From: a bacterium
Lineage (GTDB): Bacteria > UBP7 > UBA6624
DNA length: 64,000 nt
NCBI GenBank assembly: GCA_002716355.1
Contig: PBAU01000003.1
Span: 124,001 to 188,000, forward strand
Reading direction: 5' to 3'
The notes under the pieces were generated by a model. That model was not told the DNA's origin. It did no database searches and was given only the letters and a program-made list of their open reading frames with translations. How positions within the stretch are numbered: position 1 is the stretch's first letter; every line of letters starts with the position of its first letter. The position numbers and the translations under genes are program-made. Below, piece after piece: positions 36,482-62,221 of the stretch.

Positions 36482-38284
36482 GTGAAAACAATAATTAACA
36501 ATTTAATGGTTTCTGTAGGGACTGCTAACGGTTCTGGATCACAAAGTGCAAACCTGATAATACATAGAGCTTTATTTAAAATGGGGCTACCAGTTTCAGG
36601 AAAAAATTTGTTCCCATCAAATATAGCTGGATTGCCAACTTGGTTCTTGATAAGGGTGACGGAACAGGGTTACCCTGCTCCAGCTGATGACACCAATATA
36701 GCAATTCTTATGAACCCAGACACATGGGAAAAAGATTTAAGCAAATTGAAAAAAGGTTCAGTAGCTATATACAACAGTGATACCCGTATGCCGGTAGAAA
36801 GAGACGATTTAATTCTTTACGACATTCCTTGTTCAAAAATAGCTAGAGGCATTGATTCAAAGCTTGCCAAACTCATAACAAATACAGTTTATGTTGGAGC
36901 CTTATCTGAAATCATAGGGATAGAACAAGAAGCAATCGTTGAAGCTTTAAAGCATCAATTTAACAATAAACAAAAAGCAATTGAATTAAATCTAAAAGCA
37001 ATTGACGAAGGTAGAAACTACATAAAAGAAAATCATAAAAAGAATCAACCCTGGAAGGTTGAGAGAAGAGATTTAACGCAAGGGAAAATGATAGTTGATG
37101 GAAATCAGGCTGGAGCTTTAGGCTCTCTTTTTGGAGGTGTCACTTTTCTTGCATGGTACCCCATTACACCCTCAAGCTCTTTAGCAGAAAGCTTAATTGG
37201 ATACCTGAAACAACACAGAGAGTATGTTGATGGTTCAAAAACTTATGCAGTGGTTCAGGCAGAAGATGAGCTAGCAGCAGCTGGAATGGTTTTTGGTGCA
37301 GGTTGGGCTGGATCCAGATCGATGACTACAACAAGTGGAGCAGGAATATCGCTAATGACGGAATTTATTGGTTTGGGCTATTACGCAGAGGTTCCAGGTG
37401 TTTTTTGGAATATTCAAAGAGTAGGACCATCCACAGGCCTCCCAACAAGAACACAACAATCAGATATAAATTTTTGCTATAAGCTTGGTCATGGCGACTC
37501 AACACACCCCGTATTGCTGCCAGCAACCCCCAAGGAATGTTTTGAGTTTGGATGGAGATCTTTTGATATTGCAGAAAGATTCCAAACTCCAACCTTTGTA
37601 CTTTCTGATTTAGATCTAGGAATGAACCCTTGGATTAGTGATGATTTCGAATACCCCAACAAACCTTTCGACAGAGGAAAAGTATTGAAAGAAGAAGATT
37701 TAAACAAGGTTGAATCTTGGGGGAGGTACAGGGACGTTGATGGAGACGGCATACCTTATCGAACACTTCCAGGAAACCCACATCCAGACTCTTCTTATTT
37801 CACCAGAGGCAGCGGACATGACGAAGATGCAACATATTCAGAAGACCCTGAAGTTTATGAGCGAAACATGAAAAGGCTAGCTAAAAAACACGAAGGCCTT
37901 AGGGCTAAAATGCCTCAGCCAAAAATAGAGCATTCATCAGGCAAGTCAAAAATAGGTTTAATATCCTATGGAACCGTTCATACAGCCATAGAAGAGACAA
38001 TAGACATTCTGAAAGAAAAAAACGTAGAAATTAATTACCTTAGGATTAGGGCCCTGCCCTTATCTCCAAAAGTTAATGAATTTATAGATTCACATGAAGA
38101 AATTTTCATCATAGAGCAAAACAGAGACGCTCAGATGTTCAACTTGATAAAAGAAGAGTTGGACTCATCAAATATTAAAAAAATCAAATCATGCGCTTAT
38201 TCAGACGGAATGCCAATGGCGGCATCAAAAATATCAGCTAATATAACTGAAAAAACACAAATCAAAATAAACAAAAAATCATGA
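36482..38284 (+). CDS. korA: 2-oxoacid:ferredoxin oxidoreductase, fused gamma-alpha subunit (KorA-like)
   Basis: The 600-residue protein has a gamma-type domain first (residues ~1-190; GTANGSGSQSANLIIHRALFKMGLPVSGKNLFPSNIAGLPTW). The pyruvate-flavodoxin alpha domain follows at ~205-600 (GNQAGALGSLFGGVTFLAWYPITPSSSLAE, AEDELAAAGMVFGAGWAGSRSMTTTSGAGISLMTE). The partner korB overlaps by 4 bp. 2-Oxoglutarate is the likely substrate, given icd and sucCD close by and no OGDH here; other 2-oxoacids are possible. The start is GTG with no clear Shine-Dalgarno and a TATAGAAT-N12 upstream. Confidence 0.9.
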   Translation: MKTIINNLMVSVGTANGSGSQSANLIIHRALFKMGLPVSGKNLFPSNIAGLPTWFLIRVTEQGYPAPADDTNIAILMNPDTWEKDLSKLKKGSVAIYNSDTRMPVERDDLILYDIPCSKIARGIDSKLAKLITNTVYVGALSEIIGIEQEAIVEALKHQFNNKQKAIELNLKAIDEGRNYIKENHKKNQPWKVERRDLTQGKMIVDGNQAGALGSLFGGVTFLAWYPITPSSSLAESLIGYLKQHREYVDGSKTYAVVQAEDELAAAGMVFGAGWAGSRSMTTTSGAGISLMTEFIGLGYYAEVPGVFWNIQRVGPSTGLPTRTQQSDINFCYKLGHGDSTHPVLLPATPKECFEFGWRSFDIAERFQTPTFVLSDLDLGMNPWISDDFEYPNKPFDRGKVLKEEDLNKVESWGRYRDVDGDGIPYRTLPGNPHPDSSYFTRGSGHDEDATYSEDPEVYERNMKRLAKKHEGLRAKMPQPKIEHSSGKSKIGLISYGTVHTAIEETIDILKEKNVEINYLRIRALPLSPKVNEFIDSHEEIFIIEQNRDAQMFNLIKEELDSSNIKKIKSCAYSDGMPMAASKISANITEKTQIKINKKS

Positions 38285-39303
38285 GCAAAGAAAACATACT
38301 TGGATTACCAATACAAGAGTACAAGGGTGGAAAGTCAACCTTATGTGCTGGATGTGGACACGATTCAATAACTGACAAAATCATCAAGGCATGTTTCAAC
38401 AATGGAATAAAACCCCATATGGTAGCAAAAATGTCTGGAATAGGCTGCAGCTCTAAAACTCCTGCGTATTTTTTATCCAAATCACATGGCTTCAATACGG
38501 TTCATGGAAGAATGCCTTCAGTGTCTACTGGTGCCGCTTTAGCAAATAGACAACTTACCGTTTTGGGTGTGTCTGGTGATGGCGATACAGCCAGTATAGG
38601 AATAGGTCAATTTGTGCATTGCGTAAGAAGGAATGCCCCTATGGTTTATATTGTTGAAAATAATGGTGTATACGGCTTAACAAAAGGTCAATTTTCAGCA
38701 ACAGCAGATGAAGGGTCTAAATCAAAAAGAGGGGTTCCGAATGAGATCCCGCCCATTGACTTAACCAGTTTAGCAATCCAATTGGGATGTGGCTTTGTTG
38801 GAAAAAGCTTTTCAGGGGCACCAAAACAACTGACCCCATTAATACAAGCAGCATTGAGTTACCAAGGGACAGCGGTAATAGATGTAATATCACCCTGTGT
38901 AACTTTCAACAACCACGAAGGCAGCACAAGAAGCTACAACTATGTTAAAGATCATGACATAGAGCTTCAAACTTTAGACTACATTCCCAGTTTTACACCT
39001 ATTGATGAAATTGACATACCACAAGGCGAATCAACAGATGTTGAAATGCATGATGGTTCGACAATAAGGCTTACGGGGACAAAAGAAGATTACGATGTTC
39101 ATGATAGAAATGCAGCTATCGCCGCAATTAATGAATCAATGGCTAAAGGCGAACATCTAACAGGCCTTCTTTACCTTGATAATGCCAAAAAGAACATATA
39201 TCAAGAAATGAGACTCTGTGAAACTCCATTAGCATCCCTTCAAGAGGAAACAATAAGACCTACAGAAGAAACACTTTTAGAGATAATGAACTCTTACAAA
39301 TGA
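38281..39303 (+). CDS. korB: 2-oxoacid:ferredoxin oxidoreductase beta subunit (KorB-like)
   Basis: The 340-residue thiamine-diphosphate subunit has LCAGCGHDSI (a Fe-S/TPP start motif), MSGIGCSSK, the TPP-Mg motif GVSGDGDTASIGIGQFVHCVRRN and NNGVYGLTKGQFSAT, then CVTFNNHEG. With korA it would oxidise 2-oxoglutarate to succinyl-CoA and reduce ferredoxin; the reverse CO2-fixing direction is chemically possible. There is no separate ferredoxin or delta subunit in the operon. Confidence 0.92.
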   Translation: MSKENILGLPIQEYKGGKSTLCAGCGHDSITDKIIKACFNNGIKPHMVAKMSGIGCSSKTPAYFLSKSHGFNTVHGRMPSVSTGAALANRQLTVLGVSGDGDTASIGIGQFVHCVRRNAPMVYIVENNGVYGLTKGQFSATADEGSKSKRGVPNEIPPIDLTSLAIQLGCGFVGKSFSGAPKQLTPLIQAALSYQGTAVIDVISPCVTFNNHEGSTRSYNYVKDHDIELQTLDYIPSFTPIDEIDIPQGESTDVEMHDGSTIRLTGTKEDYDVHDRNAAIAAINESMAKGEHLTGLLYLDNAKKNIYQEMRLCETPLASLQEETIRPTEETLLEIMNSYK

Positions 39304-40262
39304 GTGTAACCCTCGCAACATTTTTTATTGTTTATTTAGTAAGTTCATTTTGCTTTAATGCCTCTGTCATGAAAAAGCATGGCGGAACCCTATTAAAGTG
39401 TGAATCAGGAATCTTAAGAACAAACCTAAGAATAATACTTTATTTGATTGGGTTAATCTTTGGGTCTTTTGTAGTTGTAAGCAGTTTAGACATTGTGCAA
39501 CAATCTATACCGGAATTTCCGTCAGTGGGCCCAATACTTGCAATGCTTGTATTAATATTCATATCAGAATTTTTCTTTAACTTCTTTGACAAAAAGGGAA
39601 CCTTGGGTCTGAGTATTTCAAAAAAAAGGCTGCTGGAAGGTGTCGAGGGTTTAAATTATGGTGCAGTGATATTCATCGCCTGCCTCCTCCCCTCACTTCT
39701 AACAGGCTCAATTGACCCCTTCACAAACATGCCTGGCAGACTAAACCCCAGCCTTCTTGGTGAAATGTTTGGAATTTTAATTATCGCAGCACTTTTTGAA
39801 GAAGTTCTTTTTAGGGGTTATATTTTTCGAACACTAACATACACCTGTCCAGCTTGGATACCCTTAACACTCTCTTCTTTCATCTTCTCTTACGTTCACT
39901 GGAATCAGGCTGTTCTCACAGGCGAAGGGGACACGCTTCAATGGCTATTCAGAATAAATGTTTTTTTAGCAGGTTGGATTATGGCAAAATTAATCATAAG
40001 AACAGGCAATCTTTGGTATGCATGGTGGTGGCATTTTTCATGGAATTTTATTCAAGGCCCAATACTAGGCATATCTGTATCCGGAACAGATATAGGAAAA
40101 GAATTTGGTGCAATATACAAAGAAGGCAATGACCTGATAACAGGAGGGTCGATTGGCATAGAGGCATCACTCCCAGCAACAATAATTCTTTATCTTGCAA
40201 TAATCAAAGAAAAAGAAATAACACAATTCTTTAAGATAAAAAAAATCCAGGCTAAGAAATAA
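39300..40262 (+). CDS. CPBP-family intramembrane metalloprotease
   Basis: The 320-residue protein has about seven to eight membrane segments. CPBP (CAAX/bacteriocin-processing) motifs are present: EEVLFRGYIFR (EExxxR), SSFIFSYVHWNQ (FxxxH) and WYAWWWHFSWNF. These are the glutamate and histidine zinc ligands of the Rce1-like family. The ATG overlaps korB by 4 bp, so it is co-expressed with the oxidoreductase, and the reason is unknown. Its 3' end overlaps the convergent sucD by 11 bp. Confidence 0.88.
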   Translation: MSVTLATFFIVYLVSSFCFNASVMKKHGGTLLKCESGILRTNLRIILYLIGLIFGSFVVVSSLDIVQQSIPEFPSVGPILAMLVLIFISEFFFNFFDKKGTLGLSISKKRLLEGVEGLNYGAVIFIACLLPSLLTGSIDPFTNMPGRLNPSLLGEMFGILIIAALFEEVLFRGYIFRTLTYTCPAWIPLTLSSFIFSYVHWNQAVLTGEGDTLQWLFRINVFLAGWIMAKLIIRTGNLWYAWWWHFSWNFIQGPILGISVSGTDIGKEFGAIYKEGNDLITGGSIGIEASLPATIILYLAIIKEKEITQFFKIKKIQAKK

Positions 40263-41127
40263 ACCCTTTTAAAATGTCTGGCATTTCTGATAATCTTTCA
40301 GGAACAGGAACCCCAACTGACTCTAAGGCTTCTACCTTGCTTTGTGGTGTCCCCTTGTTTCCTTCAACAATAGCACCTGCATGCCCCATAGCCTTTCCTG
40401 GAGGAGCTGTCCTTCCACCTATAAAGCCTACTATCTTGTTTGAAATTCTAGACAATGAAGGAATCATTTCAGCAGCTTCCTCTTCATCTGAACCACCTAT
40501 TTCACCTACCATGGCAACAGCAAGAGTGTCCTCATCATGATCAAAAGCCTTCAGGGTTTCTATAAATCTAGCCCCTATCACTCTGTCTCCACCTATTCCA
40601 ACAGCTGTTGAAATACCTAAACCTGCCCTGCTTATCAAATCAACAAGCTCGTAAGTCAATGTTCCTGATCTTGAAACGAGGCCAATATTGCCCTTTTTGA
40701 AAATACTGGAAGGCATGATACCCATTGAAGCTTGCCCTACAGAAAAAATGCCAGGACAATTTGGACCAACCATAATAACTCCTTCCCTTCTGACAAGTGC
40801 TCCAATTTTTATTTCATCATGCAAAGGTATGCCTTCAGTGATAACAACCAAAAACTTAACACCTGATTCAACAGCATCTTTTACAGCAGCCAAGCAAAAT
40901 CTTGCTGGCACGAAAATAACAGAAGCAGTAGCTCCAGTATCCTTGACTGCATTTGAGCAATTGTCAAAAACAGGCAAACCCAAATGCGATTCGCCTCCTT
41001 TTCCAGGAGTTACACCAGCAACAACATTGGTTCCGTACTTGATCATGTTGCTAGTATGAAAGGTGCCCTCTCTTCCTGTCATTCCTTGAACTATAACTTT
41101 TGTTTTATCATTTAACCAAACGCTCAT
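40252..41127 (-). CDS. sucD: Succinyl-CoA ligase (ADP-forming) alpha subunit
   Basis: The 291-residue protein shows VIVQGMTGREGTFHT and the CoA-binding Rossmann region GVTPGKGG. It also has PNCPGIF, GIVSRSGTLTYEL and the phosphohistidine in GHAGAIVEG, all SucD markers. With SucC it interconverts succinyl-CoA and succinate with substrate-level ATP or GTP formation. The start overlaps sucC by 4 bp. It is the last gene of tyrS-icd-sucC-sucD. Confidence 0.97.
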   Translation of the reverse strand: MSVWLNDKTKVIVQGMTGREGTFHTSNMIKYGTNVVAGVTPGKGGESHLGLPVFDNCSNAVKDTGATASVIFVPARFCLAAVKDAVESGVKFLVVITEGIPLHDEIKIGALVRREGVIMVGPNCPGIFSVGQASMGIMPSSIFKKGNIGLVSRSGTLTYELVDLISRAGLGISTAVGIGGDRVIGARFIETLKAFDHDEDTLAVAMVGEIGGSDEEEAAEMIPSLSRISNKIVGFIGGRTAPPGKAMGHAGAIVEGNKGTPQSKVEALESVGVPVPERLSEMPDILKGFIS

Positions 41128-42260
41128 GATTCATCCCTTAACCTAACGGCAAGCTCTGCAGCCTCATCCATAACATCCGTAACGCTTAAATCCGTTTCAT
41201 TTTTTAAAATTTCCAAACCTTCTTCCGCTCTAGTTCCAGTAAGCCTTATCACTATTGGAACCCTAGGAGAAGATTCATTTACAACATCAGCTATACCCCT
41301 AGCAACCTCGTCCCCTCTCGTAATTCCTCCAAAAACATTAATGAATATTGATTTAACTTTTGGATTTCCTTCAACTAGCTTTAAAGCGTTATTTACAACT
41401 TCTGCTTTTGCTCCCCCTCCTATATCCAAAAAATTAGCAGGCTCTCCGCCTGCATTCTTGACAGCATCCATGGTTGCCATAACCAAACCTGCTCCATTAC
41501 CAATAATACCTACATCTCCCTCCAAGTGAACATAAGAAAAGCCTTGTTTTTTTGCTATCTTTTCTCTAGAGCTATCATCCCCTGAATTCATTTCAAACAA
41601 TGATGATTGTCTAAATTCAGCAGTGTCATCAACACTCATCTTACAATCAAGAATCACAACCTCTTCATCTTCAGTCAAAACAAGAGGATTAACCTCCAAA
41701 AGGGTCAAATCTTTATCTACAACCATGCCATAAGAAGAAATAATTATTTTCACAACCTCATCAACGTAACTTTTGTTCAAGCCTGATTCAAGCAGTTTTT
41801 TCTCTAATTCAGAAATCTCTAATGCCTTTAATGGGTTGATTGGCATTTTGAGAACCTTTTCTGGTGAATCATGAGCAACCTGCTCTATGTCAACACCACC
41901 CTCTACAGAAAAGATAAGCGTCATTGATCGGTTCGCCCTATCAAAAGTTATACTCATGTACCATTCTTCTTTTATATCAACAGCTTTTGCAACAAGTATC
42001 TCTTCGACCTTGTGGCCCTTTATGTCCATTCCTAATATAGCACTTGAAATGCTTTCAGCCTCTTCTTTGTTGAATGCTAGCTTTACACCGCCAGCCTTAC
42101 CTCTTCCTCCTATAAGAACCTGTGCTTTGATAACCACTGGGAAGCCAACTTCAGAAGCGTAACTGATGGCATCATGCACATTTGAAGTCACAAGACCTAA
42201 AGCTACATTTTCAAATCTTTCAGATAAAACTTTTTTTCCTTGATATTCTTTAAAATCCAT
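41124..42260 (-). CDS. sucC: Succinyl-CoA ligase beta subunit
   Basis: The 378-residue ATP-grasp protein has VVIKAQVLIGGRGKAGGVKLAF near the N-terminus, LEVNPLVLTEDEEVVILDCK, NGAGLVMATMDAVKNAGGEPANFLDIGGGA and FVNIFGGITRCDxVA-like text (INVFGGITRGDEVARG). It overlaps icd by one base. Together with icd and KorAB it covers isocitrate to succinate. Confidence 0.97.
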   Translation of the reverse strand: MDFKEYQGKKVLSERFENVALGLVTSNVHDAISYASEVGFPVVIKAQVLIGGRGKAGGVKLAFNKEEAESISSAILGMDIKGHKVEEILVAKAVDIKEEWYMSITFDRANRSMTLIFSVEGGVDIEQVAHDSPEKVLKMPINPLKALEISELEKKLLESGLNKSYVDEVVKIIISSYGMVVDKDLTLLEVNPLVLTEDEEVVILDCKMSVDDTAEFRQSSLFEMNSGDDSSREKIAKKQGFSYVHLEGDVGIIGNGAGLVMATMDAVKNAGGEPANFLDIGGGAKAEVVNNALKLVEGNPKVKSIFINVFGGITRGDEVARGIADVVNESSPRVPIVIRLTGTRAEEGLEILKNETDLSVTDVMDEAAELAVRLRDES

Positions 42261-43468
42261 TACATCCTCTCAATAATAGAATCCCCAAAAGCAGAACAGC
42301 TAACTGGCTCAACCCCACCAATCAAACGAGCAAAATCATAAGTAACCTGCCTGTCAGCAATTGAATCTTCTATTCCTTTTATTATTAAATCAGCTGCCTC
42401 AGTCCAGCCAAGATGCCTTAGCATCAATTCGCCTGAAAGTATAACTGAACCTGGGTTAACCTTGTCCTGTCCTGCATACTTAGGTGCAGTTCCATGTGTT
42501 GCCTCAAAGATAGCATGACCGGATTGGTAATTAAGGTTACCTCCCGGAGCAATACCAATACCTCCAACCTGAGCAGCAAGCGCATCTGAAATGTAATCGC
42601 CATTAAGGTTAAGTGTCGCTATGACATCATATTCATCTGGCCTTGTTAGTATTTGCTGCAAAAATGCATCAGCAATAACATCCTTAACAACTTCTCCAGT
42701 TTCAAAAACCCTCCAAGGGCCTTCCTGTAAAACTTTTGCACCTCTAGAATCTGCAACTTCATATCCCCAATCTCTAAAAGCGCCTTCTGTGAATTTCATT
42801 ATGTTTCCTTTATGAACAAGCGTCAAATTCTTTCTATTGTTTTTAAACATAAAATCAAAAGCAGACCCAACAAGCCTAGAAGTGCCCTCTTTTGAAACTG
42901 GCTTAATCCCTATTCCGCAAGAGCCAGGGAATCTTATCTTCTTATACTTTTCAGGAAATTCATCAGACATCCAATTCAAAAACTTCTTTGTATCTTCAGA
43001 ATCAAAAGCATACTCAATACCTGCATAAATATCCTCAGTATTCTCTCTAAAGATTACCATATCAACTTTCTGAGGGTCTTTAACAGGGCTAGGAACACCC
43101 TTGAACCACCTAACAGGTCTTAAACAAACATAAAGATCCAAAATTTGCCTCAAAGCAACATTCAAACTCCTCATTCCTCCACCAACAGGAGTGGTCAAAG
43201 GTCCTTTTATGCCTACTAAATAATTCTTAAAAGCTTCTATGGTTGCATCAGGAAGCCAATCACCAGTCTCCCTGTAAGCTTTCTCTCCTGCCAAAACCTC
43301 AAGCCATTCAATTTTTCTACTTCCAGAATATGCCTTTTCGACAGATGCGTCAAAAACTCGTACGCTTGCCTGCCATATATCTGGACCTATTCCATCGCCC
43401 TCTATAAAAGGAATTGTTGGATTGTCCGGAACGCACAATTCCCCATCTTGCATAGTAATTTTTGTCAC
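42260..43468 (-). CDS. icd: NADP-type isocitrate dehydrogenase
   Basis: The 402-residue protein matches bacterial [18 protein letters not shown], the substrate/regulatory serine region [71 protein letters not shown], then [28 protein letters not shown]. It makes 2-oxoglutarate for KorAB. The predicted start is GTG at 43468, or an ATG five codons later. It overlaps tyrS by 4 bp. Confidence 0.96.
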
Positions 43469-57203: not shown

Positions 57204-57926
57204 ATGAAAAAAGTTAAATGCTTGCTATTGCATGGTTCTGGAATGAGCGACAAAACTTGGTCGGCTTTAATGAGTCATTTTCCCAAAAATTGGGTAATTT
57301 TCAACCCAACCCTACCCGGCCATGGCTCTCAAGACCTGCAAGTAAAAAATCTAAAAGAGCTCAGCTTTTGGCTCAAGCAACAAATCAAGAAGAAAAAACC
57401 TGACATAGTAGCAGGCTGGTCAATGGGTTCCTTTTTACTTCAAAACACAATCAACAAATACGGAAAAATGAATATAAAAGTTGCATCCTTTATAAATGGA
57501 TCTCCAGCAGAAAAAAAATCAAAAACCTCAAAGGAGGCTCTTCAGCAAAAGCTTGACAACTATTTTTCTGATCCAATAAGGCACATCAAACCAACCTTAA
57601 ACGAAATGAAAGAACATTGGTCTCAGGATGACATAAAATCAATAATAAAATCTTGTAAAAACTCAGACAAAACCCTTTTAGAGAACCTAAGATGGGATAT
57701 GTTTGAAACAGATTTTGGGAAAATGATAAAAAACTTCCCAACACCTATACTTTTAATGCATGGAATTTATGACAAGATAAACCCTTTAAGCCAAGCTAAA
57801 TGGGTAAACAAGACTGCGAGAAAAAGCTTGCTTTTCGAATTTGAATCCAGGCATGCCCCTTTTACAAAAAACCCTCAATTGTTTGTTGAGAAAATGATTG
57901 AAGGTTACGAAAAGCTATCCTGCTGA
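57204..57926 (+). CDS. Alpha/beta hydrolase (BioH/RBBP9-like)
   Basis: The 240-residue protein has LLLHGSGMSDKTWSALMSHF, the oxyanion-loop PTLPGHGSQD, the nucleophile elbow GWSMGSFLL, an acid in LMHGIYDKINPL and a histidine in ESRHAPFTKNP. The order and size resemble BioH-type carboxylesterases, which in biotin synthesis free pimeloyl-ACP methyl ester, but no bio genes are near and the substrate is unknown. The 3' end overlaps the convergent desaturase by 12 bp. Confidence 0.85.
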   Translation: MKKVKCLLLHGSGMSDKTWSALMSHFPKNWVIFNPTLPGHGSQDLQVKNLKELSFWLKQQIKKKKPDIVAGWSMGSFLLQNTINKYGKMNIKVASFINGSPAEKKSKTSKEALQQKLDNYFSDPIRHIKPTLNEMKEHWSQDDIKSIIKSCKNSDKTLLENLRWDMFETDFGKMIKNFPTPILLMHGIYDKINPLSQAKWVNKTARKSLLFEFESRHAPFTKNPQLFVEKMIEGYEKLSC

Positions 57927-58763
57927 ATCAACCTTTCTTGACTTCTCTAAAAAAAACACCTCAATGATCCAAGCAGAAAGGTCAATTTCTCCCTTCTTTT
58001 TAGATGTTCTATGATTTCCTGGATCCCAATGATGGTTGTTGTGAAGCCCAAAAGAAAAAAAGGTCAAAAAATGAACAAGCCAATTATTCTTTGACTGGCA
58101 CTGTTTTCCGGTTTTGTAATTTTCATACCCATACATATGACAAATAACATTCACAAAAGCCATCTGACAATCAACTATTGCTGATGGAATCAACATTCCA
58201 AAAAGCAGCCACTCAAAACCAAGAAAATACCACAATGAAAAAACATACAAAGAAACAAGTAAAAAATAATAAGCATGTGTGAACTGATAAATCTTGTCTG
58301 AAATTAGACCTTTAAAATATTTTTTATTTTCAAGTGGCACAAACTCATATGCTGGATGCAGGTAAAACCAAACCTTCCACCATGGTATTGAATGAGGAGA
58401 ATGCGGGTCATCTTCACTGTCACATTCGGCATGATGTTTTCTATGTACAACCGCCCAATGCAAAGGGCTTCCACTCATACATGGAATAGACCAAAATAGC
58501 AAAAATATCCTTTTTATTTTTGATGTTTTGAAAGACCTGTGAGCGTCATACCTATGCAATCCAATATCTGTACCCAAGACAATCATAAAAAAACAAATAA
58601 TCAAAGAAAGAGTCCACATAGTGGTTACATTACTAGAATTTTTAATAGAGTAAAAAATTCCAAACAGAACAAACAAAGGTTTGATGATGATCAAAAACCT
58701 CATGATTGGAGAATATAAATTTTCTAAATAAGGATTATAGAAAAATCGTTTTTTTTGATTCAT
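57915..58763 (-). CDS. Membrane fatty-acid desaturase (acyl-CoA delta-9-like)
   Basis: The 282-residue protein has the three histidine boxes of stearoyl-CoA-type desaturases: HRYDAH (about 70-75), HRKHH (107-111) and HNNHH near 240, each between membrane segments. It binds a di-iron centre and should introduce a cis double bond into an acyl chain. It is the last gene of the nadE-M20-TC-FAD-desaturase run and overlaps the FAD enzyme by 4 bp. The chain substrate (CoA, ACP or lipid) is not readable. Confidence 0.92.
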   Translation of the reverse strand: MNQKKRFFYNPYLENLYSPIMRFLIIIKPLFVLFGIFYSIKNSSNVTTMWTLSLIICFFMIVLGTDIGLHRYDAHRSFKTSKIKRIFLLFWSIPCMSGSPLHWAVVHRKHHAECDSEDDPHSPHSIPWWKVWFYLHPAYEFVPLENKKYFKGLISDKIYQFTHAYYFLLVSLYVFSLWYFLGFEWLLFGMLIPSAIVDCQMAFVNVICHMYGYENYKTGKQCQSKNNWLVHFLTFFSFGLHNNHHWDPGNHRTSKKKGEIDLSAWIIEVFFLEKSRKVDSAG

Positions 58764-60106
58764 TTTTTGATAGAGAGCTTCAATCCACTCTTATGAGATA
58801 CATTTTTAAAAATCTTCAAAAAGAATTTACTAAATTCCTTAATAGCTTTTTTTTCAAAAGCAATAAAGGTTCGTATATACATATCTCTAATCTTTGGATA
58901 ACGATTACCCCATTTCAAAAACATATCAACAAATTTTGGATTGTAATAAAGCTGAGCCCATCCCTGAATGTGAAAAAGAACATCCTGGAATTCTTCTTTA
59001 TATTTTGCATGATACTCTTTTTCAAGAAAGCCTTCAGACAGATTGTCTTCTTCCATTCCCTTCATCACTGCATCAGCAAGAATCATTCCTGAGCCATGAA
59101 CAACATGCAAGCCAGCAGAAAACACAGGATCAACAAAGCCTAAAGTGTCCCCTATTAAAACCCAGCCATCACCTACAGCTTTGGATGATTTTGCATGAAA
59201 ATTTGTCAAAAGAGCAGAATCTTTTGAGGATTGGTTGATTTTTGTTTTAACTGCATCAAAGCCAGTAATCCTTGTTGCATTCTCTATTCTTTTTTTTATA
59301 AAAGGGTGATTCCAAACCCATTTTTCATAAAATGCCTCAGGGTCTTTTGAATATTCATCCCAATGTACATGCTTGTTGGCAACAACACCTATAGAAGATT
59401 TTGGATCCTTAAGCGGTGCCCACCAGTACCAAAGGTCATTTTCGGTAAACAGCAACCTAACATCTCCAGCATTTTTACCTTGATCTTTTTTACAGTCTTC
59501 CCAATGTGCAAAACAAGCAAACGAATGCAATTCTTCAATCTCCATCCTGATGCCTAACTTTCTAGGTATGAAATTAGTTCTCCCACTGGCATCAACAACA
59601 AGCTTTGACCTCACTTCAAAAGTTTTTCCATGACGTTCAAAAGAAACTCCATTCATTCTCCCATTTTCGTCATAAAAAAGCTCTTCAACTCTTGCTTCCT
59701 CAAGAGCTGTAACGCCATTGTTTCGTGCATGGTTTAATAAAAATTCATCATAAACAGAACGGTCTAATTGGTAAACATGGGCATGGCATCTTGAATCTTC
59801 AGGATGAACATCTTGGTCAAAATTAAACTGAGTACCATTTGGAGTTATCCAGCCAGCACCCCATTTTTGGATAAACAAAGGGTCCATCATTTCTTTCGTA
59901 ACACCTAATCGATGCCAGATTCTCCAAATAGCCGTTGGGGCGATTATCTCACCAACACAAAATCTTGGAAATTTAGATCCCTCTAAAACTATAACTTTAT
60001 AGCCTTCCTTTGCTACAAGTGTTGCAAAAACAGCACCAGCTGGGCCGCCTCCTATGACTATAAAATCATAAAATTCATCAGGAATAAAATGTTTTTCTCT
60101 GTTCAC
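58760..60106 (-). CDS. FAD-dependent oxidoreductase of the flavin halogenase-like group
   Basis: The start is uncertain: GTG at 60106, or TTG at 60130, which would overlap the upstream gene by 13 bp. The FAD Rossmann motif IVIGGGPAGAVFA and E in VIVLEGSKFPR lie at the N-terminus. The segment FPRFCVGEIIAP resembles halogenase/geranylgeranyl-reductase 'FPRxxxGE' loops. VVDASGRTNFIP and GDTLGFVDPVFSAGL complete the FAD-binding set. The halogenase WxWxIP motif is not present; WYWWAPLKDPKSSIGVV sits in its place. So a monooxygenase or reductase on a lipid-like substrate is more likely than halogenation. It pairs with a tocopherol-cyclase-like and a desaturase gene. Confidence 0.83.
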   Translation of the reverse strand: MNREKHFIPDEFYDFIVIGGGPAGAVFATLVAKEGYKVIVLEGSKFPRFCVGEIIAPTAIWRIWHRLGVTKEMMDPLFIQKWGAGWITPNGTQFNFDQDVHPEDSRCHAHVYQLDRSVYDEFLLNHARNNGVTALEEARVEELFYDENGRMNGVSFERHGKTFEVRSKLVVDASGRTNFIPRKLGIRMEIEELHSFACFAHWEDCKKDQGKNAGDVRLLFTENDLWYWWAPLKDPKSSIGVVANKHVHWDEYSKDPEAFYEKWVWNHPFIKKRIENATRITGFDAVKTKINQSSKDSALLTNFHAKSSKAVGDGWVLIGDTLGFVDPVFSAGLHVVHGSGMILADAVMKGMEEDNLSEGFLEKEYHAKYKEEFQDVLFHIQGWAQLYYNPKFVDMFLKWGNRYPKIRDMYIRTFIAFEKKAIKEFSKFFLKIFKNVSHKSGLKLSIKK

Positions 60107-60117
60107 GAATACATATT

Positions 60118-61053
60118 CTAAGGCAACCAATTGTTATGATGGCTTTTTAATCCAGAACCCAACGCAGGAAAATTTGATTCAAAAAATTCACCTAAATAAT
60201 TACCGCTAACATAGCCATCAAAAGATTCTGGATTTGAAAAAACCTGATCACTCACTTCAGGGCTAGGAAAAACAATATCCCTTTTTGAGCCATGTTTCGC
60301 CTGTCCTTCTATTATTATTTTTTTATTTTGATCCCTTACAAAGAAATCAAAAGAATCACCCTTGTTTTCAAAATAAATATCATGTCCAAGAAAAGTAGCA
60401 TAAACATTGGTTTTTTCTTTGTTCGCCCATCTAAAAATACCTTCATCACCCTTGGCTGTAGGCATTAAACCTATCTCAAAAGCGGAATTAGTAAATTGCG
60501 GGATAATATTTGCATGCAGCCAATTCCAAGAATCAGGAAAATCCGGTCCATGATTTTTTGCCTGATAAACAATCGCATCCTTTAAATCAAACTTCTCTCC
60601 CGAAAAAACTATAGAACCGTTCGCAAAACCTTTCATGGTTGGAACCCTATGTATAAAAGGTAAAGACCTCAAATGCAACTTTTCCCTAACATTAAAAGCT
60701 CTAAGGTCAGAGCCTTTTTCTGTTCCATCAGAACACACTGAGTCAATTGAAAAATTCCAACTCTTGTCTTTTTCAGATATAGAAATCAAATCTGAAGAAA
60801 AAAGATTATCCTGCCATTCAATATTAGCATTATCCTGGCTCATCTTTAAATCATCAAATATCTCAAAACATTCAACATCTGAAAAAGAAGAACAAAAATA
60901 GAAAAATTTTCTTAAACCAATATCTGTAGAAATCACATAAGGCATAACAAAAAACCATTTTTTCTCCGCAGGGATGACAACCCTGCAGTTCCAGAAATCA
61001 AACCAATTGCCTTTTCCTGGGTATCTATAAGAATTCCTGTAATCAAAATTCAT
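60118..61053 (-). CDS. Tocopherol-cyclase-like (lipocalin-type) protein
   Basis: The 311-residue protein has a beta-rich lipocalin/CrtC-VTE1-like layout. The segment AIVYQAKNHGPDFPDSWNWLHANIIPQ (160-186) matches the tocopherol cyclase signature (xxEKNWGxxFPxxWxWxQ). SYRYPGKGNWFDFWNCRVV and PFIHRVPTMKGFANGSIVF support an entry domain that binds a hydrophobic substrate. Tocopherol cyclases close a chromanol ring on prenylquinols; related CrtC proteins hydrate carotenoids. Cyclase activity here is inferred and could be of a different kind. It overlaps the M20 gene by 11 bp. The start is ATG. Confidence 0.7.
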   Translation of the reverse strand: MNFDYRNSYRYPGKGNWFDFWNCRVVIPAEKKWFFVMPYVISTDIGLRKFFYFCSSFSDVECFEIFDDLKMSQDNANIEWQDNLFSSDLISISEKDKSWNFSIDSVCSDGTEKGSDLRAFNVREKLHLRSLPFIHRVPTMKGFANGSIVFSGEKFDLKDAIVYQAKNHGPDFPDSWNWLHANIIPQFTNSAFEIGLMPTAKGDEGIFRWANKEKTNVYATFLGHDIYFENKGDSFDFFVRDQNKKIIIEGQAKHGSKRDIVFPSPEVSDQVFSNPESFDGYVSGNYLGEFFESNFPALGSGLKSHHNNWLP

Positions 61054-62221
61054 TCAAAGCCTCTGTAGCCATCATGACATGCAATGCCACGCCAAGATGC
61101 AGAGCATCTTCATCAGCTTTAAAATTTGGATTATGGACGCTTACAGTTGTTCCTTTTTCTTCATTCCCAATCCCAAGTGCAATAAAGCAACCTGGACAAA
61201 CTTCTGTATAATAGGCAAAATCTTCACCGCCCATTACAGGGTCCATCTCTACAATGTTTTTTCCAAAAATATTTTTAGAGTAACTTTTAATATCCTTCCA
61301 GCAATCTGGATCATTAACAGTTGGAGGGTATACCTTACCTGGAAAAAGAACTCTTGCGCTACACCCATTTGATATTGATACACCTTCAACCACTTCTTTG
61401 AGCCTTTTTTGAACTCTCATCTGTCCATCCATTGTGAGAGACCTTATGGTGCCTCCAAAACGTATAGATTCAGGAATAACGTTATGTGCATCGCCTCCAT
61501 TAACATAGGTTACACTCAGAACAGCTGGCTCCAAAGGATCTGTTTCCCTACTTATTATGCTCTGTAAAGAAGAAATTATTTGAGATGTTGTTGTGATTGG
61601 ATCTATTGAAAAATGTGGCATTGCTGCATGCCCACCTTTGCCTCTTATTTCAACCTCAAAAAAACCTGCAGATGCAAGAAATGTTCCTGACCTTGAACCT
61701 ATAGACCCTGTTGGCAAGGTCGGCCAAACATGCAATCCAAAAACCTTGCTTACTTTTGGATTGTCTAAAGCTCCCTCTTCTCTCATTTTCAACCCACCCG
61801 CTCCACCTTCTTCTGCTGGCTGAAATAAAAACTTAATTGTTCCTTTTATCTTCTCTTCATGTTTTTTAAAAATCTTAACCGCACCTAAAAGCATTGCAAC
61901 ATGACAATCATGGCCACAAGCATGCATCTTCCCATCAATAGTGCTTTTAAAATCAAGATCGTTCTCTTCCTGTATTGGCAATGCATCCATGTCTGCTCTT
62001 AAAGCAACACATGGCTCTTCACCTGTCCCAATTTGAGCTAAAACACCGGTCTCTGCAATTGGATGCTCGTATTCAACATTAAGCTCATCTAATTTTTCCC
62101 TTATAAGCTGACTGGTTTTAAACTCCTCATACATTGTTTCTGGATACTTATGAATCTCTCGCCTAATGGAAACAACCCACTCCTCTATATTTTTAGCTTC
62201 TGATAAAAAATCTATCTTCAT
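61043..62221 (-). CDS. M20-family metal-dependent amidohydrolase
   Basis: The 392-residue protein has ALRADMDALPI, CGHDCHVAML (metal Cys-His ligands), LFQPAEEGGAGG, GGHAAMPH and MGGEDFAYY. This is the hippurate/IAA-amino-acid hydrolase and N-acyl-amino-acid deacylase pattern. It removes an acyl group from an amino acid or peptide. AAGGAG lies before its ATG, inside nadE. It overlaps nadE by one base. Confidence 0.93.
   Translation of the reverse strand: MKIDFLSEAKNIEEWVVSIRREIHKYPETMYEEFKTSQLIREKLDELNVEYEHPIAETGVLAQIGTGEEPCVALRADMDALPIQEENDLDFKSTIDGKMHACGHDCHVAMLLGAVKIFKKHEEKIKGTIKFLFQPAEEGGAGGLKMREEGALDNPKVSKVFGLHVWPTLPTGSIGSRSGTFLASAGFFEVEIRGKGGHAAMPHFSIDPITTTSQIISSLQSIISRETDPLEPAVLSVTYVNGGDAHNVIPESIRFGGTIRSLTMDGQMRVQKRLKEVVEGVSISNGCSARVLFPGKVYPPTVNDPDCWKDIKSYSKNIFGKNIVEMDPVMGGEDFAYYTEVCPGCFIALGIGNEEKGTTVSVHNPNFKADEDALHLGVALHVMMATEALNEF

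Follow-up and report, generated by a model that had tools for sequence, protein, structure and literature searches.

We describe three adjoining genes in a bacterium of the phylum UBP7 that encode a tocopherol cyclase-like (TC-like) protein, a flavin adenine dinucleotide (FAD) protein of the halogenase superfamily, and a membrane desaturase. Our most specific new result, read from aligned sequences, is that the first two of these enzymes, encoded side by side, have lost residues that are invariant in their sampled relatives, and that the loss is fixed across UBP7. Because these residues are changed and the change is kept throughout UBP7, the pattern suggests new but fixed functions for the FAD and TC-like proteins. 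Taken together, the locus probably holds two neofunctionalized lipid enzymes beside an ordinary desaturase; a pathway common to all three is plausible though unproven.

The genes lie in contig PBAU01000003.1, of which we analyzed positions 124,001 to 188,000 (64,000 nucleotides; hereafter the window). The contig (C3 in our set) belongs to a 1.26 Mb genome, GCA_002716355.1, that is 86.6% complete. UBP7, or Candidatus Bimafiota, has been described from six genomes (0.83–1.39 Mb) of saline and marine waters (PMC11382960). Our UBP7 set consists of the source genome (G000), one of the same genus (G001) and one of the same family (G002), which are the only relatives below the domain level in the set; the wider comparison sample comprises 386 genomes across Bacteria, and statements on genome-wide content cover the families searched. 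A search of genome contigs with the locus returned bacterium UBP7_UBA7824 as its sole match. PHROGs matches were uninformative, and literature searches on such a three-gene cluster found no report.

Altered active-site residues in the TC-like and FAD proteins

By profile comparison, the 311-aa TC-like protein is a distant, divergent member of PF14249 (Tocopherol_cycl). The family profile matched at 33.6 bits against a cut-off of 26.6, aligning residues 135–191 only, and hhalign against 14 other PF14249 proteins gave a probability of 98.9% and an E-value of 2.5e-17 over 263 columns. A PDB search with the sequence returned no match, even at E 10. We modeled the structure from 17 aligned sequences (mean pLDDT 53.6; a three-sequence model, at pLDDT 35, was unusable), and the predicted fold is an AttH/CrtC/VTE1-like double barrel. 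The closest folds to the model are AttH (2ich, Z 13.7), CghA (6kaw, 12.7), 25-phosphosteroid lyase (11.9) and kievitone hydratase (11.4), with Phm7 and Fsa2 at Z 11–12. Matches to this AttH group span Z 9.4–13.7, those to 2ich and 6kaw extending over 184–191 residues, and the next, unrelated, fold scores Z 7.0. Such fold relatives include a hydratase, a lyase and pericyclases that act on hydrophobic substrates (prenyl or polyene). A first-pass annotation, made from the letters of the window, had called this a lipocalin-type protein with a tocopherol cyclase signature; the profile match and the model both agree with that call, and the fold predicted for the 311-residue protein stays within the AttH/CrtC/VTE1 group.

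The PF14249 core reads Y-x-[DE]-x-[ND]-W-G..P..W-x-W. At the acid column and the Trp column that follows it, 14/14 other members carry D/E and W, whereas all three UBP7 proteins carry A165 and H168. CrtC sequences from plasmids share an invariant Y-x-D-x-N-x-G..W-x-W, in which the two Trp residues follow the Asp at +15 and +17, and in Rubrivivax CrtC the residues D268 (its proton donor), W283 and W285, with the same spacing, are essential (PMC12402844). hhalign places the CrtC Asp on the PF14249 acid column, at an overall CrtC score that is not significant. With Ala165 in that column, the UBP7 protein would lack the family's presumed proton donor, a catalytic role assigned to the PF14249 acid by analogy with CrtC.

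The FAD protein belongs to the halogenase superfamily, matching Trp_halogenase (PF04820) at 69.5 bits against a cut-off of 21. NCBIfam CmlS scored 133 bits, below its cut-off, and the geranylgeranyl reductase model GG-red-SF (TIGR02032) reached 110.4 bits against a cut-off of 158.8, on which ground we rejected a geranylgeranyl reductase. The best relative in the PDB is CndH (3e1t, E 4e-43), with the halogenases PltA, Bmp2 and CmlS also among the best solved relatives, and the C-1027 cluster halogenase gene is one of the closest annotated plasmid matches (31% identity). The GxGxxG motif is kept (G27-x-G29-x-x-G32). In contrast, several positions that are 90–100% constant in 21 other homologues are changed in all UBP7 proteins, including GES to GEI (GES in 21/21 relatives) and WxWxI to WxWxA. 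The first-pass annotation had described an enzyme of the halogenase/geranylgeranyl reductase group without WxWxIP; the superfamily stands, but the motif is only one substitution away (WxWxAP), and the lysine and FxDPxxSxG are kept. The lysine and Fx.Px.Sx.G are not diagnostic of a halogenase, as uncharacterized homologues have them too. In a tree, the UBP7 proteins form a long branch of their own, with support 100/99 and a stem of 1.26, that lies outside the CndH/SgcC3 clade and groups with no characterized halogenase. The WxWxI motif is said to suppress monooxygenation (PMC12871659, PMC10696468), and because it is altered in UBP7, hydroxylation or another oxidation would be at least as likely as halogenation.

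The third protein is a three-histidine-box membrane desaturase, as first annotated. FA_desaturase (PF00487) matched at 56 bits against a cut-off of 29.7, the best solved relatives are the SCD1 structures 4ymk and 4zyo (E 2e-14), and H209 is invariant in UBP7, as are all three boxes (Table 1). The source genome has no second protein of this kind at E ≤ 1e-5, and for that reason the desaturase may be the cell's general acyl desaturase.

Natural TC-like and halogenase-like members that lack the acid or the WxWxI isoleucine make the real role of those residues testable.

Conservation within UBP7 and occurrence elsewhere

All three genes are conserved in UBP7. Relative to the window, protein identity in G001 and G002 is 95 and 59% for the FAD protein, 82 and 42% for the TC-like protein, and 92 and 54% for the desaturase. 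dN/dS between G000 and G001 is 0.033, 0.120 and 0.076, respectively, with gcvT and gcvP at 0.057–0.067. Hence, the three genes are real and under purifying selection. In G001, nadE, M20 and the TC-like, FAD and desaturase genes follow one another in this order without a break. In G002, contig C31 ends in the TC-like gene, contig C17 starts with a truncated FAD gene followed by the desaturase gene, and the outer neighbors are the same. The order of the triple is therefore kept in 3/3 UBP7 genomes; in G002 the contig break separates the TC-like gene from the FAD gene, and both sides continue as expected.

Across the 386 genomes, the UBP7 TC-like profile found full-length relatives in UBP7 only, with partial ones elsewhere; PF14249 itself matched 20 genomes outside UBP7 (E ≤ 1e-8), and the FAD profile matched 25 further genomes (E ≤ 1e-20). 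The neighbors of the other FAD homologues show no common theme. Of 25 selected genomes, 10 encode a related desaturase, unlinked, and seven of these 10 lie outside UBP7; several genomes carry a desaturase plus one of the FAD and TC-like genes, again unlinked. The genes are thus carried apart outside UBP7, a pattern the first-pass annotation had named as telling against a joint pathway, and together inside it.

A possible shared pathway and its rivals

We favor, with less than even confidence, a set of lipid-modifying genes peculiar to UBP7 in which the three enzymes act in a shared pathway. The SCD-type desaturase would use O2 to introduce an acyl-chain double bond. The flavoprotein, on its separate branch of the CndH/PltA/CmlS superfamily, would oxidize a hydrophobic substrate through a C4a-peroxyflavin or flavin redox chemistry, its altered WxWxI shield making an oxygenase likelier than a strict halogenase. 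The AttH/CrtC/VTE1-fold protein would take the oxidized chain into its barrel cavity for isomerization, addition or ring closure. Catalysis there would fall to a group other than the usual Asp/Glu, with His168 the obvious candidate. We infer each of these reactions, the shared substrate and the action in one pathway. The family assignments do support the earlier remark that each of the families works on long hydrophobic molecules. If the three genes also act together, this marine phylum, of which only a few genomes are known, would gain an assigned pathway.

Several points weigh against this reading. The UBP7 comparison covers only three genomes, two of them from one genus, and confidence in the TC-like structure model is low (mean pLDDT 53.6). 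The triple is accompanied by neither a dedicated flavin reductase nor a carrier protein. Among the 386 genomes, those with FAD homologues and those with PF14249 overlap in UBP7 only, and 17 FAD-homologue loci contain neither a TC-like nor a desaturase gene within about 5–7 kb around; the co-occurrence of the triple that the first-pass annotation proposed to look for in other genomes was not found beyond UBP7. Gene overlap, which it had taken to imply one pathway, is the norm here: 28/43 co-directional neighbor pairs in the window overlap, and without the four pairs of this locus 24/39 still do and 34/39 lie within 20 bp. We dropped overlap as evidence for one pathway after this window-wide count. 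The flanks are kept in UBP7 as well, with acpS, the glycosyltransferase genes GT2 and GT4, nadE and M20 upstream and gcvT, gcvH, gcvP, lplA and fumC beyond, and the position of the triple is no better conserved than that of its neighbors. Gene order is thus conserved across UBP7 but is not a synteny specific to the triple. Since the flanking blocks are equally conserved and overlap is common in the window, linkage carries little weight. What survives of the original proposal of one lipid or prenylquinone pathway is the lipid-type families, the fold and the order in UBP7; overlaps, triple-specific synteny and co-occurrence elsewhere are not supported, and a prenylquinone substrate is unlikely.

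The chief rival holds that there is no pathway, and that three unrelated lipid genes sit in a housekeeping run downstream of a ribosomal-protein and cdaA-ybbR-acpS block in a streamlined genome. On this view the desaturase would serve general acyl desaturation in the cell, with separate roles for the FAD and TC-like proteins. The overlap counts, the equal conservation of the gcvT-H-P-lplA-fumC and acpS-GT2-GT4-nadE flanks, a swap of the nadE form in the same slot that leaves the order undisturbed, the single desaturase of its kind in the genome and the co-occurrence not found elsewhere all speak for it. Three adjoining lipid-type families in a 1.3-Mb genome, and phylum-specific active-site changes in both non-desaturase members, speak for the shared pathway instead. 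We lean against the rival while granting it substantial weight.

True halogenation, in which the FAD protein, in seawater, would chlorinate or brominate either a lipid or an aromatic bound to a carrier, is very unlikely. It would fit the solved relatives CndH, PltA, Bmp2 and CmlS, the retention of K89, GxGxxG and FxDPxxSxG, the similarity to the C-1027 halogenase, and a flavin reductase (PF01613) encoded once each, unlinked, in G000 and G001. However, none was found in G002, all UBP7 proteins carry WxWxA and GEI, their branch is long and lies outside the CndH/SgcC3 clade, and the retained lysine and Fx.Px.Sx.G are shared with uncharacterized homologues.

A more far-reaching form of the shared pathway, to which we give a slim chance, is that Bimafiota lack the usual dehydratase of fatty-acid synthesis and live on imported acyl chains, which M20, the desaturase, the altered flavoprotein and the altered cyclase-fold protein would remodel into an undescribed oxidized or cyclized membrane lipid. 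FabA/FabZ dehydratase (PF07977) was found in none of G000, G001 and G002, with 9/14 controls positive, and completeness values put three independent misses from incompleteness alone at a probability of about 0.01 (0.13 × 0.38 × 0.22). The one acyl carrier match (PF00550) in UBP7 is weak and lies in G002 (L123, 3169–3420), adjoining an RNase III-like gene with no fab genes beside it. Despite having acpS, UBP7 may therefore lack the standard type II pathway of fatty-acid synthesis.

Tailoring of quinones, in which the TC-like and FAD proteins would act on menaquinone, at its ring or prenyl tail, to yield a chromanol or a reduced or oxidized prenyl chain, is very improbable. In its favor, tocopherol cyclase acts on prenylquinols and geranylgeranyl reductases on prenyl chains, GG-red-SF scores 110 bits, and the genome encodes a menaquinone prenyltransferase of the futalosine type next to UbiD-, UbiX- and MqnE-like genes. 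Against it, that score is below the cut-off of 158.8 and the Asp/Glu for acid-driven chromanol closure is Ala. The three UbiA proteins of G000 are CtaB (heme O synthase), MqnP/ubiA_other (the menaquinone prenyltransferase) and a decaprenyl-phosphate phosphoribosyltransferase-like protein; a homogentisate prenyltransferase is not among them, although at 86.6% completeness a gene could have been missed. Phytoene/squalene synthase (PF00494) was found in 0/3 UBP7 genomes, with 7/14 controls positive. With neither enzyme found, tocopherol or carotenoid biosynthesis is unlikely, and so, from the gene complement, is the prenylquinone or carotenoid substrate first suggested. The futalosine-type menaquinone genes (MqnE-, UbiX-, UbiA- and UbiD-like; L125, 502–8813), named by eye from sequence, are close together, and among them lie one carbohydrate-binding-like gene and one peroxiredoxin-like gene.

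Gene layout and known systems

As first described, the three minus-strand genes adjoin one another and follow M20, nadE and a glycosyltransferase gene (Table 1). They were also described as nearly overlapping; the adjacency holds, but comparison with the UBA7824 homologue puts the probable start of the FAD gene at a GTG at 60106, which replaces its 13-bp overlap with the 311-aa gene by an 11-bp gap. Promoter and terminator scans yielded no more than about chance expectation.

Table 1. Genes and motifs of the three-gene locus and its surroundings, in window coordinates
Feature	Position	Strand or orientation	Remarks
Alpha/beta hydrolase	57204-57926	convergent with desaturase gene, 12-bp overlap	best NCBIfam match BioH, below cut-off; kept in all UBP7
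SCD/DesC-type (stearoyl-CoA desaturase type) membrane desaturase, 282 aa	57915-58763	minus	PF00487
His box 3, H241-N-N-H244-H245	58029-58043	minus	invariant in UBP7 alignment
His box 2, H107-R-K-H110-H111	58431-58445	minus	invariant in UBP7 alignment
His box 1, H70-R-Y-D-A-H75	58539-58556	minus	His invariant in UBP7 alignment
Flavin-dependent halogenase-superfamily (FAD) protein, 456 aa	58760-60130	minus	PF04820; probable start GTG at 60106
F332-V-D-P-V-F-S-A-G340, Fx.Px.Sx.G tunnel motif	59111-59137	minus	conserved
W234-Y-W236-W-A238-P239, WxWxIP variant	59414-59431	minus	Ile in 21/21 other homologues, Ala in 3/3 UBP7
K89, column of the conserved halogenase lysine	59864-59866	minus	K in 21/21 homologues and all UBP7
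PF14249 (TC-like) AttH-fold protein (predicted), 311 aa	60118-61053	minus	PF14249
Y163-Q-A165-K-N-H168-G...W176-N-W178, TC-like motif	60520-60567	minus	acid to Ala, Trp to His
M20 amidohydrolase/carboxypeptidase	61043-62221	minus	TIGR01891 380.6 bits, above cut-off; upstream neighbor in all UBP7
nadE, short form, 270 aa	62221-63033	minus	TIGR00552 161 bits
GT4 glycosyltransferase	from 63051		upstream of nadE

In G002, the nadE slot (L016, 2211–3860) holds a 549-aa glutamine-dependent form instead of the 270-aa short form of the window, an in-place replacement. The upstream run (L017, 11052–18426) continues with no strand change through GT4, GT2, acpS, ybbR, cdaA (DAC domain), rpsI, rplM, rplQ, rpoA and more ribosomal genes, so that a very long co-directional block joins ribosome, c-di-AMP and lipid-type genes. 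Elsewhere in the window (36482–43468), 2-oxoacid:ferredoxin oxidoreductase alpha and beta genes lie beside opposite-strand genes of isocitrate dehydrogenase and succinyl-CoA ligase type, and together these would make up a ferredoxin-type TCA branch.

Among known systems, the TC-like protein resembles the tocopherol cyclases VTE1/SXD1 in its above-cut-off Pfam family, its 263-column profile match and its Y..KN.G..FP..W.W core. It differs in being 18–21% identical to three full-length bacterial members (L074–L076) and in having Ala for the acid and His for the Trp of Y-x-[DE]-K-N-W-G in all UBP7, and the tocopherol pathway was not found. With AttH, the lipocalin-like Diels-Alderases CghA, Fsa2 and Phm7, kievitone hydratase and 25-phosphosteroid lyase it shares the predicted fold (Z 9.4–13.7), although identity is just 7–13% and the model is of low confidence. 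It shares with carotenoid 1,2-hydratase CrtC the short motif Y-x-D-x-N-x-G...W-x-W, but the whole-length profile match is not significant, the Asp is gone in UBP7, and phytoene synthase was not found.

The FAD protein has the fold family, GxGxxG, lysine, W.W..P and Fx.Px.Sx.G of the halogenases CndH, PltA, CmlS, Bmp2 and SgcC3. Unlike them, the UBP7 proteins, 26–31% identical over aligned columns, form their own branch and carry WxWxAP, GEI and changes at other invariant positions. The desaturase, in contrast, matches stearoyl-CoA desaturase/DesC in its three His boxes and its similarity to 4ymk (E 2e-14), and has nothing unusual about it.

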